Of a DNA stretch of 64,000 nucleotides, positions 1 to 63,881 are shown in pieces (the first letter of the stretch is position 1; the number at the start of each line of letters is the position of its first letter). A model generated the notes under the pieces. The model saw nothing but the letters and a program-made list of their open reading frames with translations. It searched no databases and was not told the DNA's origin. The DNA comes from an uncultured Bacteroidota bacterium (lineage in GTDB: Bacteria > Bacteroidota > Bacteroidia > JABEUT01), in NCBI GenBank assembly GCA_903916255.1, contig CAIWVW010000007.1, forward strand, positions 20,048 to 84,047. Direction: 5' to 3'. Made by a program: the position numbers and the translations under genes.

Positions 1-1595
1 AGCCCGGCCTGTGTCATGGTCCATTTTTGGCCGCCTATGTGCTGGCCACGGTGGTGCAGTGCCCTGCAAAGTACATGGTCAATGCCTTCCGGCAAATCGA
101 CGCTTTTATTGAGCGGCACCTCTAAAGTAAGGTCAAGCCGTTGTTTTCTCCATCCTTTGGTTATTTCAATACTATAATAAGGGTCAAGAGCCAGCGTGGA
201 ATCACGATTTGTGTAGTTGTATTCAATCCCTGCCGCAAAGTCATCGGCTTCGGCCTTGTTTATGCCATTCGCAATTTTAGTAACCACCAGGTGATAATTG
301 GAATCCAGGCTTTGTTCTATGCATAGGGACGGATTTCCGCGGTAATCATCTTCTGCGGCTATGTATACGTTTAATGAATCCAATTCAAGAAGATTATCCT
401 GGGGGAAGCTCTTGTTGTCCATCTTTACATAAAGCATTTTTGCATTTGGCGGAACCGATAAATTAACATCGTTGCGGGTGAAATCGGTCACCGAAAAGTG
501 GCTGAAAACAGCTGCAATTCCTATTATCATCAGCACCCAAGAAACGCTCCAGAGGATACCGGCTGTAATAGTAAACCATTGGAAAGGCTGCCTGCGGCCT
601 GCCGCTGCCCGAATAAAACGAACAATAATAGCTAAAACCGGGATGCCGAGGAAAAGCAATATGCCGAGCAATAAAACAATCCGCATACCACCTGTTACCG
701 ACAGCATATTAAACATGTTGCTCACCGAATAATGAATCATTTGGTGGTTGCCGCCTTCAATGTTTATAATGTTTACTCCGCTGGTGAGTGATACAATTAA
801 ACCTATAAGAAGAATGCCAAATACAATGGCAATACAAACAGAAACTATAGTGAGAATAGTTTTGAGTACTCCGCCAATAAAGGTTCCCAGGCCGTGCCCG
901 GCTGAGGTGACGAAATCGCCCATGTTTTTGCCGAATTCCTTTGCATGGTCTCTTCCGCGCCCGTCGCGGATATCATTTCCAAAATCCTTTACTTTTTTTT
1001 TAATGTTGTCCATTTCTTCCTCCATTATTTTGCGGATGTTGTTTACATCTACCGGTTCGCCCATCATTTCCAGCTTTTCGGCTGCGGTGCGGGCTTTTGG
1101 GGTGATTACTACCAACAAGAGATAGAGGATGATTCCGAAGCCACCAATAAATATGGACAGCCCGAATGCCAGCCGCAACCAGATGGGGTCGATTCCGAAG
1201 TGGTGTGCCAAACCGGAACAAACGCCGCTTATTACTTTATCATCCGTATCGCGGTATACGCGCCTGCGGCCTGTGTATCCATATTGATTACCGGAATTGG
1301 TATATGCCTGTTGTTTTGATTCACTACCTTCAGGTGCGCCAAAGTCCTCAGGGTTGCCCATGATGGAAATTACTTCATCCACTTCGGTAAGGGTGATAAC
1401 CTGCTTGTAAGCGTTTATCTTTTGCTGTAATATTTCAGCAATGCGCGATTCTATATCGGCCATAATTTCATCATGCCCTTCCGAGCTTTTCAGCGATGCG
1501 CTGATAGCATCTATATAGGCCGAAAGTTTTGCATGTGCATCTTCTTCTACGTTGAATACGATGCCTCCTATGCTGCTGCTTATTGTCTTTTTCAT
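1..1595 (-). CDS. PspC domain membrane protein, 3' end cut by window edge
   Basis: The reading frame is open from ATG at 1595 to the window edge (531 codons), so the C-terminus is missing; the ORF track omits it for lack of a stop. The N-terminal ~100 residues form a soluble region (starts MKKTISSSIGGIVFNVEEDA) of a kind often found before PspC in Bacteroidota. A PspC domain follows at about 105-165 (VISGVCSGLAHHFGIDPIWL, then a hydrophobic helix). At least three more membrane segments lie at about 240-270, 300-325 and 345-370, then an outward-facing soluble part. PspC family members act in envelope-stress responses; the role here is inferred. It starts 7 bases after the stop of a PadR regulator, so the two form an operon in which PadR probably controls this gene. 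Confidence 0.85.
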   Translation of the reverse strand, partial: MKKTISSSIGGIVFNVEEDAHAKLSAYIDAISASLKSSEGHDEIMADIESRIAEILQQKINAYKQVITLTEVDEVISIMGNPEDFGAPEGSESKQQAYTNSGNQYGYTGRRRVYRDTDDKVISGVCSGLAHHFGIDPIWLRLAFGLSIFIGGFGIILYLLLVVITPKARTAAEKLEMMGEPVDVNNIRKIMEEEMDNIKKKVKDFGNDIRDGRGRDHAKEFGKNMGDFVTSAGHGLGTFIGGVLKTILTIVSVCIAIVFGILLIGLIVSLTSGVNIINIEGGNHQMIHYSVSNMFNMLSVTGGMRIVLLLGILLFLGIPVLAIIVRFIRAAAGRRQPFQWFTITAGILWSVSWVLMIIGIAAVFSHFSVTDFTRNDVNLSVPPNAKMLYVKMDNKSFPQDNLLELDSLNVYIAAEDDYRGNPSLCIEQSLDSNYHLVVTKIANGINKAEADDFAAGIEYNYTNRDSTLALDPYYSIEITKGWRKQRLDLTLEVPLNKSVDLPEGIDHVLCRALHHRGQHIGGQKWTMTQAG

Positions 1596-3527: not shown

Positions 3528-4124
3528 TCAGAACTTTTTCACCAGCGTAAAGCCCGGCGTAAAGCACATGGTGCCGCTTAACGGATTAGGCATAAGGCTG
3601 GGCGTAAAATGTAACGATATATCATCCGATACATTAAAACTGTGCATTTGCGCATCTACATTGGCATCCACAATTTGCAAAAGATATATTCCGGCTGCAA
3701 TAATAACGGAAAGGTCCCTGTCTTTGTGGTAATAGTCTATAATACTCGATAGCTCGGAAGACGAATAGAGATTATAATACTGGTCGATGCCGCCGTTGGT
3801 GCGTATCGTTAATGCATTATTGTAGTTATTGTAATACTGTTGGTTGGTAATTATAAAATAAGCGGCAACGCCTATACCGACATAAACAATGGGCAATTTC
3901 CAGTATTTTTTATTGTAAATCTGCCCAAGGCCGGGGCATACTGCCGAATAGAGCATTGCTTTAGCAGCGGAATGAGGATGAGTTTTTTTAGGTTGAACAC
4001 CGGTAGAATCTTGTGCCGAAAGGGTAAAGGAAAACAAACATGCAAATAGAAAAATTGAAAATGGCAATTTAACTTTCCACTTTTCACTTTTAACTTTCCA
4101 CTCGCTTGTTTTATTGACCAGCAT
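3528..4124 (-). CDS. DUF5683 domain protein
   Basis: 198 residues. After an odd charged N-terminus comes a signal-peptide core (LPFSIFLFACLFSFTLSAQ) and then the DUF5683 pattern: HSAAKAMLYSAVCPGLGQIY, NKKYWKLPIVY and a membrane helix (VGIGVAAYFIITNQQYY). This family commonly follows parAB in Bacteroidota and its role is unknown. The start at 4124 overlaps the end of parB by 14 bases, which suggests translational coupling. The first ~19 codons (SEWKVKSEKWKVK) are encoded by a copy of the AAAGT-type repeat seen elsewhere in intergenic DNA, so the true N-terminus is uncertain. Confidence 0.82.
   Translation of the reverse strand: MLVNKTSEWKVKSEKWKVKLPFSIFLFACLFSFTLSAQDSTGVQPKKTHPHSAAKAMLYSAVCPGLGQIYNKKYWKLPIVYVGIGVAAYFIITNQQYYNNYNNALTIRTNGGIDQYYNLYSSSELSSIIDYYHKDRDLSVIIAAGIYLLQIVDANVDAQMHSFNVSDDISLHFTPSLMPNPLSGTMCFTPGFTLVKKF
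4066..4105. repeat. AAAGT-type dispersed repeat inside the DUF5683 5' end
   Basis: On the minus strand the sequence is an alternation of GTGGAAAGTTAAA and AGTGAAAAG units. The same unit recurs at about 25600-25640, 40560-40585 and 63828-63862. Here it encodes the n-region of the DUF5683 protein. Confidence 0.65.
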
Positions 4125-5010: not shown

Positions 5011-5091
5011 CCTTTTCTAATTGTAAATTGTGAATTGTAATTTGTGAATGAATTTCATTTAGCATTTACAATTAACAATTTAGCATTGTTT
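5011..5091. repeat. AT-rich low-complexity spacer between parA and parB
   Basis: The spacer is built from variations on TTGTAAATTGTGAATTGTAA and TTTACAATTAACAATT. It can pair with itself as long weak AT hairpins. It resembles AT-repeats at other gene ends in the window and gives no sign of coding. Confidence 0.45.
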
Positions 5092-13058: not shown

Positions 13059-16000
13059 ATGAGTTTGCAAAAAAATATTCATTCTCTTGAAAAAATATTT
13101 TCAGGGTACCACTTGCCTTTATTGCTTGCCCTGTTTTTTATTGGGCTATCTATTTCAGGGAATTTAAACAGAAGGCAATATACTTCCGAAAAGGTAATTA
13201 AAAAGGATGATGATGGCAGGCAAGATGCCGGTTCGGAAGGGATGCGGAAGTTCTTTTTCAATGCCCGCAAAAATCCCCTTACCAACAAAATGGATTACCC
13301 TGCTATGCTGGCTTCATATAAAGCAGATTTGGCCATGCGGAATGTTAAACGGACATATAATTTTTCATCAAGTGCCAGTCTTCCGGATTTTAATTGGAAC
13401 AGTTTAGGGCCGGTAGGTATCAGTGGCTCTGTATATACTTTGTTAATAGATAAAAATGACCCATCGGGCCAAACTATGTTTGCGGGTTTTGTAAATGGCG
13501 GAATATGGAAATCTACCAATGGGGGCGCTACATGGGGAAGCACTATTCCTACGTTAGCATTTAGCCAGGATGATACCATGGCAAACTTGAATATATGCTG
13601 TTTGGCACAAGATGTAAATGGTGTGCTTTATGCGGGTACCGGTGACGGTCATACTGCCTACAGTCCAGATGGTTCGCCGTATGGGGCCGGAGTTTTAGGT
13701 GGCGGTATTTTCAAATCGACTGATGATGGAGTAACTTGGACACAGTTAGCCAGTACAATTCCAACTCCCGTTGACAGTTGGATGGTTGCATGGGCCTATA
13801 TAAACCAAATCGCAGTTCAACCTGCAAATCCAAATATTATATATGCAGCTACCAGTTTTGGAATTTATATTTCTCACGATGGAGGTCTAACCTGGGCTCC
13901 CGGAGTTACTTCTACAAACAGAAAATTGTGGAAGAGCAACGCATATAATTCTTCAGATATCAAAATATCGAATGACGGAGGTGTTGTTATAGCGGGTATC
14001 GGAGGCAATACATATTTGTGCTACCCTGCAACTAATGACAGCCTATTTATAGAAGCCCCGATTACCGGGGCCGGGCACATAAACGGAAATGCTTCGTACC
14101 TGGAATATGCTATTTCCCCAACAGACCCTAACCGTATTTATGCTTCTGAAATAGCTGCCTCAGGCAGCTTTTGCCAAAATAAAGCCTCCGGAATTTATAT
14201 GTGTGAAAATGCCGAGTCGAGCGGAAATGGTGGATATTGGTACGATATTGGCCCGGGGGGTACAACAGTTTTCGACCCTTATGTAGAACCAGCCAGTACC
14301 GATGACCAGGCAACGTATGATAACACGTTGGGGGTATCTCCCGGTAATGAAGGGGAATTATTGGTCGGCGGAACAACCGTTTGGAAATGGGTGCAAGCTA
14401 ATTCAAGCGATACCATAGGTTCTTGGTCTTCTGTTAGTGATTATTACAACATCGGTGGAAATGACCCGCGTTACGTAGGGTCCGATGAGCATGCAATTGC
14501 CTTTGACCCTACAAACCCCGATGTGGTTTTTGTAGGTGGCGACGGAGGCGTTTACAAAAGCATTGACAATGGTGTATCGTGGCTGGCATATAACCGGAAT
14601 TTTGCGGGGGCCGAATTCTATTCCCTTTGCTATGCTCCCAATCTATTTTACGTAAATGTTAATGTAGGGAATAATTTAGAAACGGAAGGTATAGGAATGG
14701 GCGGCGGAACCCAGGACAACGGCTCATTGTATATGAATGGTAATGGAATTATCCGTGATTCAGCCACGATGCTTTATGGAGGCGATGGCGCAGGCTGCGC
14801 CGTATCTCAGATAAACCCGAACTATGCATATTTTTGTGGTGATTATGGCTATTTGCTAAGGGAAAATAGTTTACCCAATTTGTGGACCCCGCAAAGCGCT
14901 TATACCCGAACGTATGGCAACTGCATGGGTGGGGATATTGATAGTATGTATAATGCTGCTGCTGCTTCCGGTGGGGTTAATTTTGTATTTCCGGTTGCTT
15001 TATTTGAAAATTTGTATGATACTTTGAATAGTGATTCTGTACAATTTATTGCTACCCAAAATTATAACCAAGGAGATACAATTTACCCTATAGGCATTAA
15101 TGCTACATATCCTTATATTCTCCCCAAAGCCCTTACATTAGGAGATACTATTACTGTACCGGACAGAGGGGTGTCGAAACTTGCCGTTGCATTCTCAGGA
15201 CCTTATGGTGTATGGATAAATGGGCAAGGAGCCAGCCAAAACCCAGTAATATGGAAACCAATTGGAGGGCCTCTTTCCAAACCTGATGCGTTCACTACTA
15301 CCGAACCTCCGCATTGTTTAGCATGGGCTCCTAATGGCGATGCTTTATTTGTAGGGGTTGAAGGCGGAAGCGCAAATTTATACCGCTTCTCGAATCTGAA
15401 TAAGGTAATTGCAAATACATATTGCAGTGGAGCGCTTTGGTACGAAGCAGCAGCTATAGTTCCAACGGGCGATTCGACAGTTATTTCCACCAATATAACA
15501 TTTAGTGCTATTGCGGGTGCTGATATTCTATCGATAGATATAGACCCTAAAAATGGGAATAATGTTCTGGTTACTATAGGTGGCTACGACGGTATTAGTG
15601 TTGAGAATGTTTGGTATTCCACGAATGCATTGGGCGCAGCTACCTTTAAAAGCGTGCAGGGCAATCTACCTCCAATGCCTGTATATAGCGGACTTGTCAA
15701 TATTCTCGATTCAACCGGAAAAAGTATTGCAGGTTCGGCCATGCTGGCCACTGAGCATGGGGTTTATTCGACTGATAATATCAACGCCTCCAGTGTGCAA
15801 TGGGTGAAGAATAATAAAGGCATGGCCAACTGCTTATCGTTTGTATTAAAGCAACAAACTTTACCTTCATGGGAATGTAACAGTACGGGTATTATTTATC
15901 TGGCAACATATGGCAGGGGGCTTTGGAATGCAACAGACCTTTATCCTAAAATACCCGATGCTATACCAATGGTTAAGGCAGACCTGAAAAAGGATAATCT

Positions 16001-24949: not shown

Positions 24950-25606
24950 ATGAAAAAAGAAATTCCATTTATTCATCTTCTTTTATGGGCGTTCATTGCC
25001 ATAGGTATGCTTGATTCATGCCATTCAAGTAAAAAAGCAACTAAATCAAAGCCTTCTTCCCAAAGTAATGGTCAGCAAAGTACCTACACACCCTCGGCTT
25101 TTTCACCCGCAAAGGGCGATAAAAAGAAACGTAAGGCGAAGGAAGCATATCCGCCGGCAACTGAAGAATCTGGCGTGAAAGAAAGTACAATAGCGGCCAA
25201 GTACGCACCCATTCTTGGCGTTTCAAAGAAAGACATTACCAATTACGCGTTGTATAAATTCATTGATTCCTGGTACGGCGTTCCCTATAAATTTGCCGGA
25301 AGAACCAAGTCCGGGGTTGATTGTTCTGATTTGGCCTCTTTGCTTTTTCAGTCCGTGTTCGGCATTACAATAGGCGGCAATGTTACCGATATATACCGGC
25401 GTTGTATACCCATTAAAGGTTCTGAACTTCAAGAGGGCGATTTGGTATTCTTTAAAATAAACAGCAAATCACTTTCGCATGTGGGCATATATTTGCAAAA
25501 CCATAAGTTTGTTCATGCAAGTGTGCATGCAGGGGTTGTAATCAGCGATTTGGGTGAAGATTACTACCGCAAGTACTTTTGGGGGGCGGGAAGGCTACTC
25601 AAGTAG
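24950..25606 (+). CDS. NlpC/P60 family cell-wall endopeptidase, lipoprotein
   Basis: 218 residues. The signal ends in a lipobox-like GMLDSC at residue 24, so the protein is probably lipid-anchored. A Lys/Ser/Pro-rich linker leads to the C40 peptidase domain from about 100: catalytic Cys in SGVDCSDLASLLFQ, catalytic His in SLSHVGIYLQNHKFVHAS, which also carries the third polar residue. These enzymes cut D-Glu-meso-DAP bonds in peptidoglycan. The stop codon lies inside an AAAGT-type repeat. A TTACTTTG box (one mismatch to TAnnTTTG) lies just upstream. Confidence 0.92.
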   Translation: MKKEIPFIHLLLWAFIAIGMLDSCHSSKKATKSKPSSQSNGQQSTYTPSAFSPAKGDKKKRKAKEAYPPATEESGVKESTIAAKYAPILGVSKKDITNYALYKFIDSWYGVPYKFAGRTKSGVDCSDLASLLFQSVFGITIGGNVTDIYRRCIPIKGSELQEGDLVFFKINSKSLSHVGIYLQNHKFVHASVHAGVVISDLGEDYYRKYFWGAGRLLK

Positions 25607-25640
25607 AAAGTAGAAAGTTAAAAGTGTAAAGTAGAAAGGA
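25598..25640. repeat. AAAGT-type dispersed repeat at the NlpC/P60 gene end
   Basis: Direct units AAAGTAGAAAGTTAAAAGTGTAAAG on the plus strand. The last codons and stop of the NlpC/P60 gene (AAG TAG) are part of the repeat. Confidence 0.6.
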
Positions 25641-25680
25641 ATAGCCGTTACAAACTTTTAACTTTTTACGGTGCACTTCA

Positions 25681-39460: not shown

Positions 39461-40060
39461 TTAGTTTAGTGTTGGGTCCTCCGGAAAATCGGCCACCATG
39501 GAATATTTGCCGCCAAGGTCTTTCAATATGTTTTTCCAGAGGTTGCTGTTGTCTTTCATCACAAGTGATTTTACCGCCGGGGTAATAATCCATGCGTGTT
39601 GTTTCATTTCGCTTTTCAACTGTCCGGCTGTCCAGCCTGCATAGCCTGCAAAAAAACGGATTTGGGTTGTTTTAACTTTGCCAATTCTAAGCAGGTCTTT
39701 CAGGGTTTCGAAATCGCCGCCCATATAAACACCATTCATAATCTCTATGCTGCCTTCCAGTTTATCGCCAAGGGTATGAATATAAAATAGCAACTCTGTA
39801 CTAACCGGCCCGCCATAGAATAGTGTGTCCTCAAATTCCGGAAAATCATCGATGGCTTGGGTAGGTTTAATAGCCAGTTTACGGTTCAGAATAAATCCCA
39901 TAGTGCCTTTGTCGCTGTGTTCTGTAACCAATACAACGGCTCGTTTAAACTCGGGGCTTTCCATAAAAGGTTCCGCCAATAAGAGCACGCCGGGTTCGGG
40001 TTTCATCTGTTTTTCGAAAATAGATGAAAAATCAGTTATGTTATCGTGGTTATCGGGCAT
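39461..40060 (-). CDS. YqgE/AlgH family protein
   Basis: 199 residues. The hallmark is PEPGVLLLAEPFMESPEFKR followed by AVVLVTEHSDKGTMGFILNR, then DTLFYGGPVSTELLFYIHTL and FFAGYAGWTAGQLKSEMKQH. The family (DUF179) has no settled function. The start overlaps the 3' end of ribH by 11 bases, so translation is probably coupled. Confidence 0.94.
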   Translation of the reverse strand: MPDNHDNITDFSSIFEKQMKPEPGVLLLAEPFMESPEFKRAVVLVTEHSDKGTMGFILNRKLAIKPTQAIDDFPEFEDTLFYGGPVSTELLFYIHTLGDKLEGSIEIMNGVYMGGDFETLKDLLRIGKVKTTQIRFFAGYAGWTAGQLKSEMKQHAWIITPAVKSLVMKDNSNLWKNILKDLGGKYSMVADFPEDPTLN

Positions 40061-40550
40061 TCTCCGTAGTCAGCTTGTTACGTAATTCAATCATTTCGAG
40101 GGCTGTATTAGCTGCATCGGCGCCTTTATTACCATGTTTGCCGCCGCTGCGTTGTTTGGCTTGTTTCAGGTTATCAGTTGTTAAAACGCCAAATATAACG
40201 GGAATATTGTGTGCCAGGTTCAATTGCATAATTCCATCGGCTACCGCTTTTGATATATAATTGAAATGGGGTGTTTCACCACGGATGATACATCCCAGGC
40301 AAATTACCGCATCAGGGGCATAGGTTTTAATGGCCCATTGGGCACCAAGAGGAAGTTCATAACTGCCCGGTACATTTAAAACTTCCATTGCAAAGGAATC
40401 TATTTCGGTATTCTCGAACACGGTAAATACCCCTTCTAAAAGGGCATCGGTAACATCCTTATGCCATTGGGAAACTACCACGCAAACTTTCAATTCTTTC
40501 CCTGTGAAAAGGGGAGCGGCTTTTTTCTTGTTTGCTTTCCTGGTAGCCAT
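40050..40550 (-). CDS. ribH: 6,7-dimethyl-8-ribityllumazine synthase
   Basis: 166 residues. It condenses 5-amino-6-ribitylaminouracil with dihydroxybutanone phosphate, the penultimate step of riboflavin synthesis, usually as a large cage. Family motifs are CVVVSQWHKDVTDALLEGVF, VPGSYELPLGAQWAIKTY, ICLGCIIRGETPHFNYISKA and PVIFGVLTTDNLKQAKQRSG. The N-terminus is Lys-rich. No other rib gene is next to it. Confidence 0.97.
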   Translation of the reverse strand: MATRKANKKKAAPLFTGKELKVCVVVSQWHKDVTDALLEGVFTVFENTEIDSFAMEVLNVPGSYELPLGAQWAIKTYAPDAVICLGCIIRGETPHFNYISKAVADGIMQLNLAHNIPVIFGVLTTDNLKQAKQRSGGKHGNKGADAANTALEMIELRNKLTTENAR

Positions 40551-40558
40551 GTTAATTA

Positions 40559-40625
40559 GTTAAAAGTTGAAAGTGTATAAAGAAGAAAAGTCCGGGCTTT
40601 AAAAACTTTAGGAACTTTTTACTTT
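40559..40625. repeat. AAAGT-type dispersed repeat between TPR gene and ribH
   Basis: The gap contains TTAAAAGTTGAAAGTGTATAAAGAAGAAAAG and a diverged second half. It is the same family as the repeats at 4.1, 25.6 and 63.8 kb. Confidence 0.55.
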
Positions 40626-40631
40626 ACGAAC

Positions 40632-41309
40632 TTATTTTGCGGTTTTCGCCTGTGCCCTGGCAATATATTTATCTATATCGTTGGCCTGTGCGTAGTTGAA
40701 GTATTGTTTCTGTATGGTTTGATATATGTTCAGCGCATTGGTATAATCACCCTTCACTTCATATGCCTGAGCTGCCTTTTTCAAATACATGGGAGCCGTA
40801 TAGTCGTTATCGCTTTTCTTTACAGCTTCCATATAGTATTCGATAGCTTTATCTGTATTGTTCAACTGCATTTCAGCATCGCCTTCCACACCAACGGCAT
40901 TGGCGCTTACCAATACATCATGGGCATCAAATTTTTCTAAATTATCAATTGCTTGCTGATAGTTTCCTTTTTGATAGTAGCACATACCAAGGTAGTAATT
41001 GGCAAGGTGTCCGGCAGGGGTCCAGCCATATTGGTCGGCAATATCCTGAAAACCTAAATTGGCTCCATCACCCTTAATAGCTCTGTTAACAGAGTCCATT
41101 GCAAAATAATTTTGCGCCCTGCGCATGGCCATTTCAGCATCTTGTTCCTGCGAAGGTATATACCAGTATTTGAATGTAACAAAGCCACCGATAAGAACCG
41201 TAACTATGATAGAAATAATAGAAATGGTTTTTTTGTTGTCATCCAGGTAGTTTTGAACGCGGTCCCACCTTTGTTCAACATTCATTAGAGGGTCATTTTT
41301 TTGTGCCAT
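40632..41309 (-). CDS. Membrane-anchored tetratricopeptide repeat protein
   Basis: 225 residues. A short cytoplasmic N-terminus (LMNVEQRWDRVQNYLDDNKK) is followed by one membrane helix (TISIISIIVTVLIGGFVTFK) and then three or four TPR units: GHLANYYLGMCYYQKGNYQQ, GDAEMQLNNTDKAIEYYMEA, YLKKAAQAYEVKGDYTNALN. The topology is like YfgM, which helps proteins pass from the Sec machinery. That role is only an analogy here. Followed by ribH after a repeat-filled gap. Confidence 0.85.
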   Translation of the reverse strand: MAQKNDPLMNVEQRWDRVQNYLDDNKKTISIISIIVTVLIGGFVTFKYWYIPSQEQDAEMAMRRAQNYFAMDSVNRAIKGDGANLGFQDIADQYGWTPAGHLANYYLGMCYYQKGNYQQAIDNLEKFDAHDVLVSANAVGVEGDAEMQLNNTDKAIEYYMEAVKKSDNDYTAPMYLKKAAQAYEVKGDYTNALNIYQTIQKQYFNYAQANDIDKYIARAQAKTAK

Positions 41310-62732: not shown

Positions 62733-63881
62733 TTACTTATACAAAACCTTTGGTGGCAAAGGTTTTGACTTTATTGCCGGAGCGGGAGCAGGTGGCGCGC
62801 CTGTATATATTTTCCGCACTCGTGCATTTCCCAAATCAGCTATGTATATGTTGCCTTTTTTGTCGGTTACAATATCAAACGGATAGCTTAACTGCGCCTT
62901 TTCGGCAGGGCCGCCGTCGCCGCTGAAGCCATTGTCAACTGTTCCGGCAAGGACCTCCATGCGTTTTGTCGCAATAAAAACTTCGCGCACCACACCATCT
63001 CCAGGGTCGGCAATATATACGTTGCCCGCTGCATCGGTCGAAACTCCCGAAGGATTAAAAAGGCGGGTAGTATCGGCGCGGCCTTCAAAGCCATTGAAGC
63101 CTGAGTCGTGCGTACCTGCAAAGGTGCTGATGATGCCATTTGTATTTACTTTGCGGATAACATTGTTTTTAAAATCGGCTATGTACATATTGCCGCTTTT
63201 GTCAACTGCAACGCCTGTCGGGCTGTTTAGTTGGGCATTATTAGCCTGGCCTCCATTGCCTGAGTAGCCTGCTTTATGGTTACCCGCAACCGTAGTAATC
63301 ATGCCGCTTTGGGCATCTACCTTACGGATTACATGGTTGCTCTGGTCGGCGATATAAATATTCAGGTTTTTATCCAGCGCAATACCCACAGGATAGCGCA
63401 GCCTTGCCCTGGTAGCCTTACCGCTGTCGCCGGAATAACCTTCATAGCCGCTTCCTGCAATAGTGCTTATTCGGTTTGTTTTAGCTTCTATTTTACGGAT
63501 AACCGCATTTCCGGCATCTGAGAAATAAATATTGCGCAGCGAATCTACACGGATGCCGATAGGGTAGGAGCATTCCGCCTTTACAGCCTTTCCGGTATCG
63601 ATATATCCTGCTTTTCCATCGCCGCAAATAGTGGCAATTATTCCATTGCGTTTATATACTTTTCTTATTCGGTTATTTTGCGAGTCGGCTATATAAACAT
63701 TGCCGGAATCATCCACCGCAACTCCGCCATTTTGGTTTAATTGAGCCATAGTAGCTTTTACGCCATCCTTATCATACCCTGCTTTTCCGGAACCTGCAAT
63801 GGTGGTTATAAGAGATGTTTGTGCAAAAAGAGTTGAAAGTGAAAAGTGTAAAGTTAAAAGCAAGAAGGTAGGTTTTTTCAT
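62733..63881 (-). CDS. NHL-repeat exported protein without sorting domain
   Basis: 382 residues. Signal peptide MKKPTFLLLTLHFSLSTLFA. Six NHL blades follow (GGVAVDDSGNVYIADSQNNR, GIISTFAGTHDSGFNGFEGR, GSGYEGYSGDSGKATRARLR and others), related to the blades of the 56.7-kb protein. The C-terminus ends in a Pro-rich AGAPPAPAPAIKSKPLPPKV with no T9SS domain, so it may stay in the periplasm or leave another way. The signal-peptide codons are a copy of the AAAGT-type repeat. Confidence 0.88.
   Translation of the reverse strand: MKKPTFLLLTLHFSLSTLFAQTSLITTIAGSGKAGYDKDGVKATMAQLNQNGGVAVDDSGNVYIADSQNNRIRKVYKRNGIIATICGDGKAGYIDTGKAVKAECSYPIGIRVDSLRNIYFSDAGNAVIRKIEAKTNRISTIAGSGYEGYSGDSGKATRARLRYPVGIALDKNLNIYIADQSNHVIRKVDAQSGMITTVAGNHKAGYSGNGGQANNAQLNSPTGVAVDKSGNMYIADFKNNVIRKVNTNGIISTFAGTHDSGFNGFEGRADTTRLFNPSGVSTDAAGNVYIADPGDGVVREVFIATKRMEVLAGTVDNGFSGDGGPAEKAQLSYPFDIVTDKKGNIYIADLGNARVRKIYTGAPPAPAPAIKSKPLPPKVLYK
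63828..63862. repeat. AAAGT-type dispersed repeat encoding the NHL protein's signal peptide
   Basis: Plus strand: AGAGTTGAAAGTGAAAAGTG then TAAAGTTAAAAGC. It is the inverse orientation, relative to the gene, of the copy in the DUF5683 gene. Here it codes for the hydrophobic LLLTLHFSLSTL stretch. Confidence 0.6.

Follow-up and report, generated by a model that had tools for sequence, protein, structure and literature searches.

Dispersed 7-bp repeats at gene boundaries and their translation within predicted signal peptides of an uncultured Bacteroidota bacterium

In the 64,000-nucleotide stretch of DNA analysed here (the window), the hydrophobic core of the signal peptide predicted for an NHL beta-propeller protein is coded by a tandem array of 7-bp units. 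The array is probably a translated copy of a dispersed gene-boundary repeat that has overwritten an existing leader and persists there through coding tolerance, and the overlap of repeat and leader is better explained by gene-boundary placement together with such tolerance than by the creation of a signal. Dispersed heptamers and their orientation rule are already published; for heptamer arrays translated as signal peptides, a literature search covering few subscription journals found no published report.

The NHL gene (62733-63881, minus strand; 382 aa, Pfam NHL / TEN_NHL) codes for the N-terminus MKKPTFLLLTLHFSLSTLFAQTS, and its leader MKKPTFLLLTLHFSLSTLFAQ (coding region 63819-63881, minus strand) has, by sequence and heuristic, the Sec layout of charged n-region, hydrophobic core and small-residue c-region (MKK / PTFLLLTLHFSLSTLF / AQ). 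From sequence only, the leader is predicted to function as a signal peptide, with cleavage probably after FAQ. Residues 7-18 are LLLTLHFSLSTL, with codons spanning 63828-63863, and the array there, about 4.3 units at 63829-63861 (plus strand), runs AGTTGAA AGTGAAA AGTGTAA AGTTAAA AG on the plus strand from 63831, which is ACT-sense relative to the gene. Among codon-shuffled versions of the leader, 0.25% match its 7-bp lag score (P = 0.0025), and the proposal of the initial annotation that the repeat, in reverse complement, codes for the hydrophobic core is confirmed. Partner arm and hairpin are both absent at the site (fold z = +0.78), so that the probable identity of the array as an arm of a dispersed inverted element is argued from its unit and orientation.

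The genome comprises 3.74 Mb in 149 contigs, of which 1.107 Mb, in stretches not picked for arrays, was scanned for periodicity. Period-7 runs numbered 50 against 1 in a Markov control; in the same scan period 9 gave 22 runs and the harmonics 14 and 21 gave 36 and 19, the remainder being low. AGT is present within the unit in 40 of 59 period-7 runs, and units of this class include AGTAATT, AGTGAAA, AGTAGAA, AGTGGTC, AGTTATA, AGTTCAT and others. Three copies of AGTKRAA, with one mismatch allowed, have 64 matches genome-wide; a reversed-pattern control (12 matches) was not used since it overestimates chance, the reversed pattern still matching AGTGAAA arrays.

Among array-centred stretches and the window, 48 of 64 arrays are intergenic. 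Arrays in coding sequence concentrate in the first 60 codons (8/17, with 17% expected; p = 0.003). The orientation rule reported for GGGAATC repeats holds here: where an intergenic AGT-class array lies no more than 20 bp from a gene boundary, it is ACT-sense at start codons in 11/11 cases and AGT-sense at stop codons in 12/13 (Fisher p = 1e-5 for starts versus stops), the stop-codon side following in part from the stop codons that AGT units carry, as PMC4679880 also points out. All six close pairs of opposite orientation are arranged AGT-> <-ACT, and an inverted partner arm accompanies 20 of 40 intergenic arrays on the expected side and 2 of the 40 on the other. Tandem, dispersed, mostly intergenic and following the orientation rule, the arrays place this genome with the dispersed bacterial heptamer repeats of the STRR, TAACTGA or GGGAATC kind. 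Behind some AGT arrays that directly follow a stop codon (L050, around 15428-15467 and 173-205, minus strand) comes a GC-rich hairpin with a T-run (GAACCCCGCC..GGCGGGGTTC), an ordinary intrinsic terminator.

An intergenic inverted element within the window has its AGT arm at 25600-25639 (plus strand), including the stop codon of the gene at 24950-25606 (plus), and its ACT partner arm at 25654-25665 (minus), upstream of 25681, where the convergent gene ends; the region 25590-25680, which contains the element (25600-25665), folds with z = -3.47. In a degenerate pair, an ACT-sense arm (40558-40575, plus) precedes by 8 bp the start of the gene at 40050-40550 (minus) and an AGT-sense arm (40614-40631, minus) lies directly past the stop of the gene at 40632-41309 (minus); the hairpin across 40558-40631 is not significant (z = -0.51). 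The gap between parA and parB has an inverted element of another unit family, AATTGTA (5019-5090; z = -3.04). Of such other 7-bp unit families, the window has ATTCCTA at 1989-2019 and AATTGTA at 5019-5049, both intergenic, the second being the one that forms the inverted pair between parA and parB.

Because a 7-bp period does not divide into whole codons, a tandem array gives one heptapeptide in all three frames. ACT-sense readings are hydrophobic (TTTCACT gives FHFSLFT, TTTTACT gives FYFLLFT and TTCAACT gives FNFQLST) and AGT-sense readings are charged and stop-prone (SEK*KVK, S*KLKVE, SGKWKVE). The initial annotation had one repeat family supplying, depending on its orientation, either a charged n-region or a hydrophobic core, which is borne out by the leaders of the NHL gene and of a DUF5683 gene (3528-4124, minus strand). 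The latter has, at 4072-4097, a real case of the charged n-region: its N-terminus is MLVNKTSEWKVKSEKWKVK, and an AGT-sense array (4068-4102, minus), starting about 9 bp past the ParB stop codon, is read as SEWKVKSEKWKVK. Elsewhere a single hairpin codes for both n-region and core, in a DUF3108 gene (MKNEKRKMKN then FHFSFFTFHS; z = -4.64) and in a lipoprotein gene (MKSEKRKIK then FFIFSFSLFIF; z = -4.96), the mean z for baseline gene starts being -0.14. In both genes the left arm comes after the stop codon upstream, and the element contains the start codon. An array can also be the complete leader, as in MKKLFIFLLFTFHFSLFTYSQ.

Gene and signal-peptide calls were from a home-made heuristic, and a strong 7-bp run was sought in the first 30 codons. 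The predicted excess at the starts of signal-peptide genes was found on checking, such a run being present in 10 of 350 where codon shuffling gives an expectation of 0.25, and in 1 of 484 other gene starts and 0 of 597 gene bodies (Fisher p = 0.001 and 4e-5), keeping in mind that the calls are partly circular because the ACT array itself resembles a core; the homologue and family tests alone escape this circularity. Just downstream of untranslated ACT arrays, 1 of 11 genes is a signal-peptide gene (base rate 38%, p = 0.06), which argues against any attraction of the element to exported genes and for an association that arises once the array is translated.

The route into leaders would start from an element that normally sits at gene boundaries, in many cases with inverted arms, and where the downstream start codon is inside or before an arm, that arm would join the coding sequence. 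T-rich units in ACT-sense are open and hydrophobic in every frame, and AGT-sense units are charged and usually have a stop within 7 codons, so that only short or mixed arrays (SEKxKVK, SGKWKVE) would survive. The signal peptide may be the sole N-terminal segment where nearly any charged-then-hydrophobic stretch works, and with such tolerance arrays would persist in leaders and be purged elsewhere; we infer that tolerance is the cause of leader arrays.

Homologues point to remodeling of leaders that were already there. Each of the fourteen NHL homologues examined in the genus has a leader or lies within a longer ORF, and none of them has the AGTKRAA array. In the closest (66% identity, G002) the leader is built of another heptamer, CTCTTAA CTCTTAG TTCTTCG CTCTTAA, so that the array may be an old one that has been kept, leaving room for positive selection. 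Ordinary leaders are found in the seven congeneric DUF5683 homologues, which lack the array, in four distant DUF3108 homologues and in eight homologues of a TPR histidine kinase, and the lipoprotein homologues keep a lipobox or membrane anchor without an array. In three congeners the DUF3108 leader has significant arrays at one position with differing units (mixed in G000, TTTTTCA/TTTTTAG in G002, TTTTTCA four times in G007), and in the DUF3108 leader of a further congener, G003, the array is not significant. That the units differ between congeners at one place suggests that arrays rewrite leaders and then turn over.

The same difference in units between homologues at one place, TTTTTCA in G007 and CTCTTAA in the G002 NHL gene, would also fit T-rich signal-peptide DNA gaining 7-bp periodicity by local replication slippage, independently of the intergenic element, and so would the degenerate heptamer leader of a 60%-identical NHL paralogue. 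This is nevertheless unlikely, as leaders and intergenic arrays share units of the AGT-class, no other period is elevated in the signal-peptide leaders with runs, and DUF3108 and the lipoprotein have the opposite arm, past the upstream stop codon. Rather doubtful too is the idea that the inverted element is a ready-made leader cassette, a stop-to-start hairpin with its left arm as n-region and its right arm as core, kept by selection while its units turn over continually, as they do in the DUF3108 congeners; if true, it would tie an mRNA hairpin at the start codon to export.

The initial annotation took the repeat to create export signals, which would mean that a cytoplasmic gene comes to code for an exported protein when the repeat inserts at its start. 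The signal-peptide-like ACT reading in all frames, the n-region-like AGT reading and the existence of complete-leader arrays are in keeping with this. However, orthologues whose equivalent signal peptide is coded by unrelated DNA, the finding named beforehand as telling against creation, largely exist for the NHL, DUF5683, DUF3108, TPR histidine kinase and lipoprotein genes. Homologues of all five are exported or anchored, mostly with ordinary leader DNA, which argues that the repeat remodels existing leaders, and the other Pfam-matched cases are in typically exported families. The claim is therefore unsupported and creation quite improbable.

There is only a slim chance that the boundary hairpin is the selected function, as a terminator, mRNA stabiliser or translation or phase-variation switch, with coding overlap a by-product under selection. 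Strict orientation, inverted pairs, hairpins at z of -3 to -5 and the frameshift that gain or loss of 7 bp would cause are compatible with it, and regulatory roles are proposed in the literature on similar heptamers (PMC4679880, PMC4692102). Against it, half of the arrays are without a partner arm, unit sequences are unconserved, mixed units argue against high slippage, and the preference for AGT at stops comes in part from the stop codons these arrays carry. Chance convergence, with F/L/S/T codons of T-rich cores mimicking TTTCACT repeats, could account for single weak cases (one mismatch, 19 bp) and is otherwise hardly credible given the composition-keeping codon shuffle, the restriction to period 7 and its harmonic 14, and the lag score of the NHL leader; a chance origin of the leader arrays was rejected on the codon shuffling.

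Beyond the genus, arrays are present in 45 of 296 genomes of the class, taken to be Bacteroidia on gene content, and the strict inverted-arm pattern (TGAAAARTGAAAA..TTTTCAYTTTTCA) has among these 296 its sole match in the genome of the window, so that the exact form is local. In a scan of named genomes, leaders coded by the repeat turned up in Prevotella, Bacteroidaceae, Cytophagia and other Bacteroidota, and the Pfam-matched array-led proteins are of typically exported families, such as TonB receptors, GH115, peptidases S46 and M1, glucosaminidase-LysM and others. Class-wide, 11 of 13 long ORFs that start with ATG and an array have signal peptides by eye, which is not significant against the base rate of 61% for ATGAA starts (p = 0.06).

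Coding copies are not restricted to N-termini. AGT-sense arrays are carried by type A sorting domains of the T9SS (TIGR04183; L044, L053, L062, L076, L078, L083, L089, L113), in the loop between FTI and VEIYN..LGQ, as in FTITVESEKLKVESNTVE, and with these C-terminal domains a second kind of export signal also carries the repeat. In proteins that appear to be cytoplasmic, AGT-sense arrays code for hydrophilic insertions of the SEKLKVE type within the protein body (L067, about 3922-3947; L038, about 3852-3877; L036, about 3607-3639), an epimerase-like and a GAF-like protein being among them. Three congeners (L075, L077, L091) share an internal ACT-sense array in one protein, TFNFSLSTFNS before LPGQLLGYGIDFG, and in two of the three an opposite SEKLKVNSE stretch lies just upstream of it. 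Among the matches listed (L379-L458), the same heptamer array is present in many IMG/VR viral contigs, and phage carriage may be a route of spread.

Rickettsia palindromic elements are longer fixed elements that are translated within the bodies of host proteins. The likeness is that a repeat is translated at tolerant sites of host proteins, whereas here the arrays are short and mainly at termini and in loops. REP and other palindromic intergenic elements resemble the arrays in being hairpins dispersed between genes that now and then extend into coding sequence. An inverted partner arm accompanies half of the intergenic arrays here and is absent at the NHL site; the arms here, in contrast to REP, are tandem heptamers in which no conserved palindrome was recognised.

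Many bacteria have an excess of heptamer repeats, and for those of the GGGAATC type the orientation rule is reported in Xanthomonas and Nostoc (PMC4692102, in the part consulted). The GGGAATC / GGGGA(C/T)T heptamers are G-rich and quadruplex-forming, whereas those here are AT-rich inverted pairs, and signal peptides are not discussed in that part of the paper (PMC4692102). The TAACTGA repeats of Beggiatoaceae, Cyanobacteria and some Bacteroidetes, as given in the sections of MacGregor 2015 (PMC4679880) drawn on here, are also 7-bp tandem repeats, mostly intergenic, placed immediately before start codons in what corresponds to ACT-sense, with intragenic copies at protein ends, as here, and with stops in one sense and an open reading in the other. 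Rotating their reverse complement, TCAGTTA, gives AGTTATC, which is of the AGT-class like the units here. The TAACTGA system, however, has one fixed unit, with related heptamers rare, in essentially direct repeats (one is indirect), whereas many units and inverted pairs are present here; its open reading is LSVISYQ, and a signal-peptide reading is not described in those sections (PMC4679880). The units here are AGTKRAA, AGTAATT, AGTGGTC and others, AGTTATC is not among the consensus units of the 1.107 Mb scan, and the repeats here are thus not of the TAACTGA unit.

A single orientation rule connects published heptamer repeats of several phyla, and the translated arrays offer a specific path, open to testing, for non-coding repeats to become part of proteins harmlessly, through a frame-independent period, strands that read as hydrophobic or charged, and a tolerant leader. 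For some exported proteins it means leaders rewritten by repeats while the mature proteins are conserved, and for such genomes it is a caution that the DNA of a signal peptide can be repeat.
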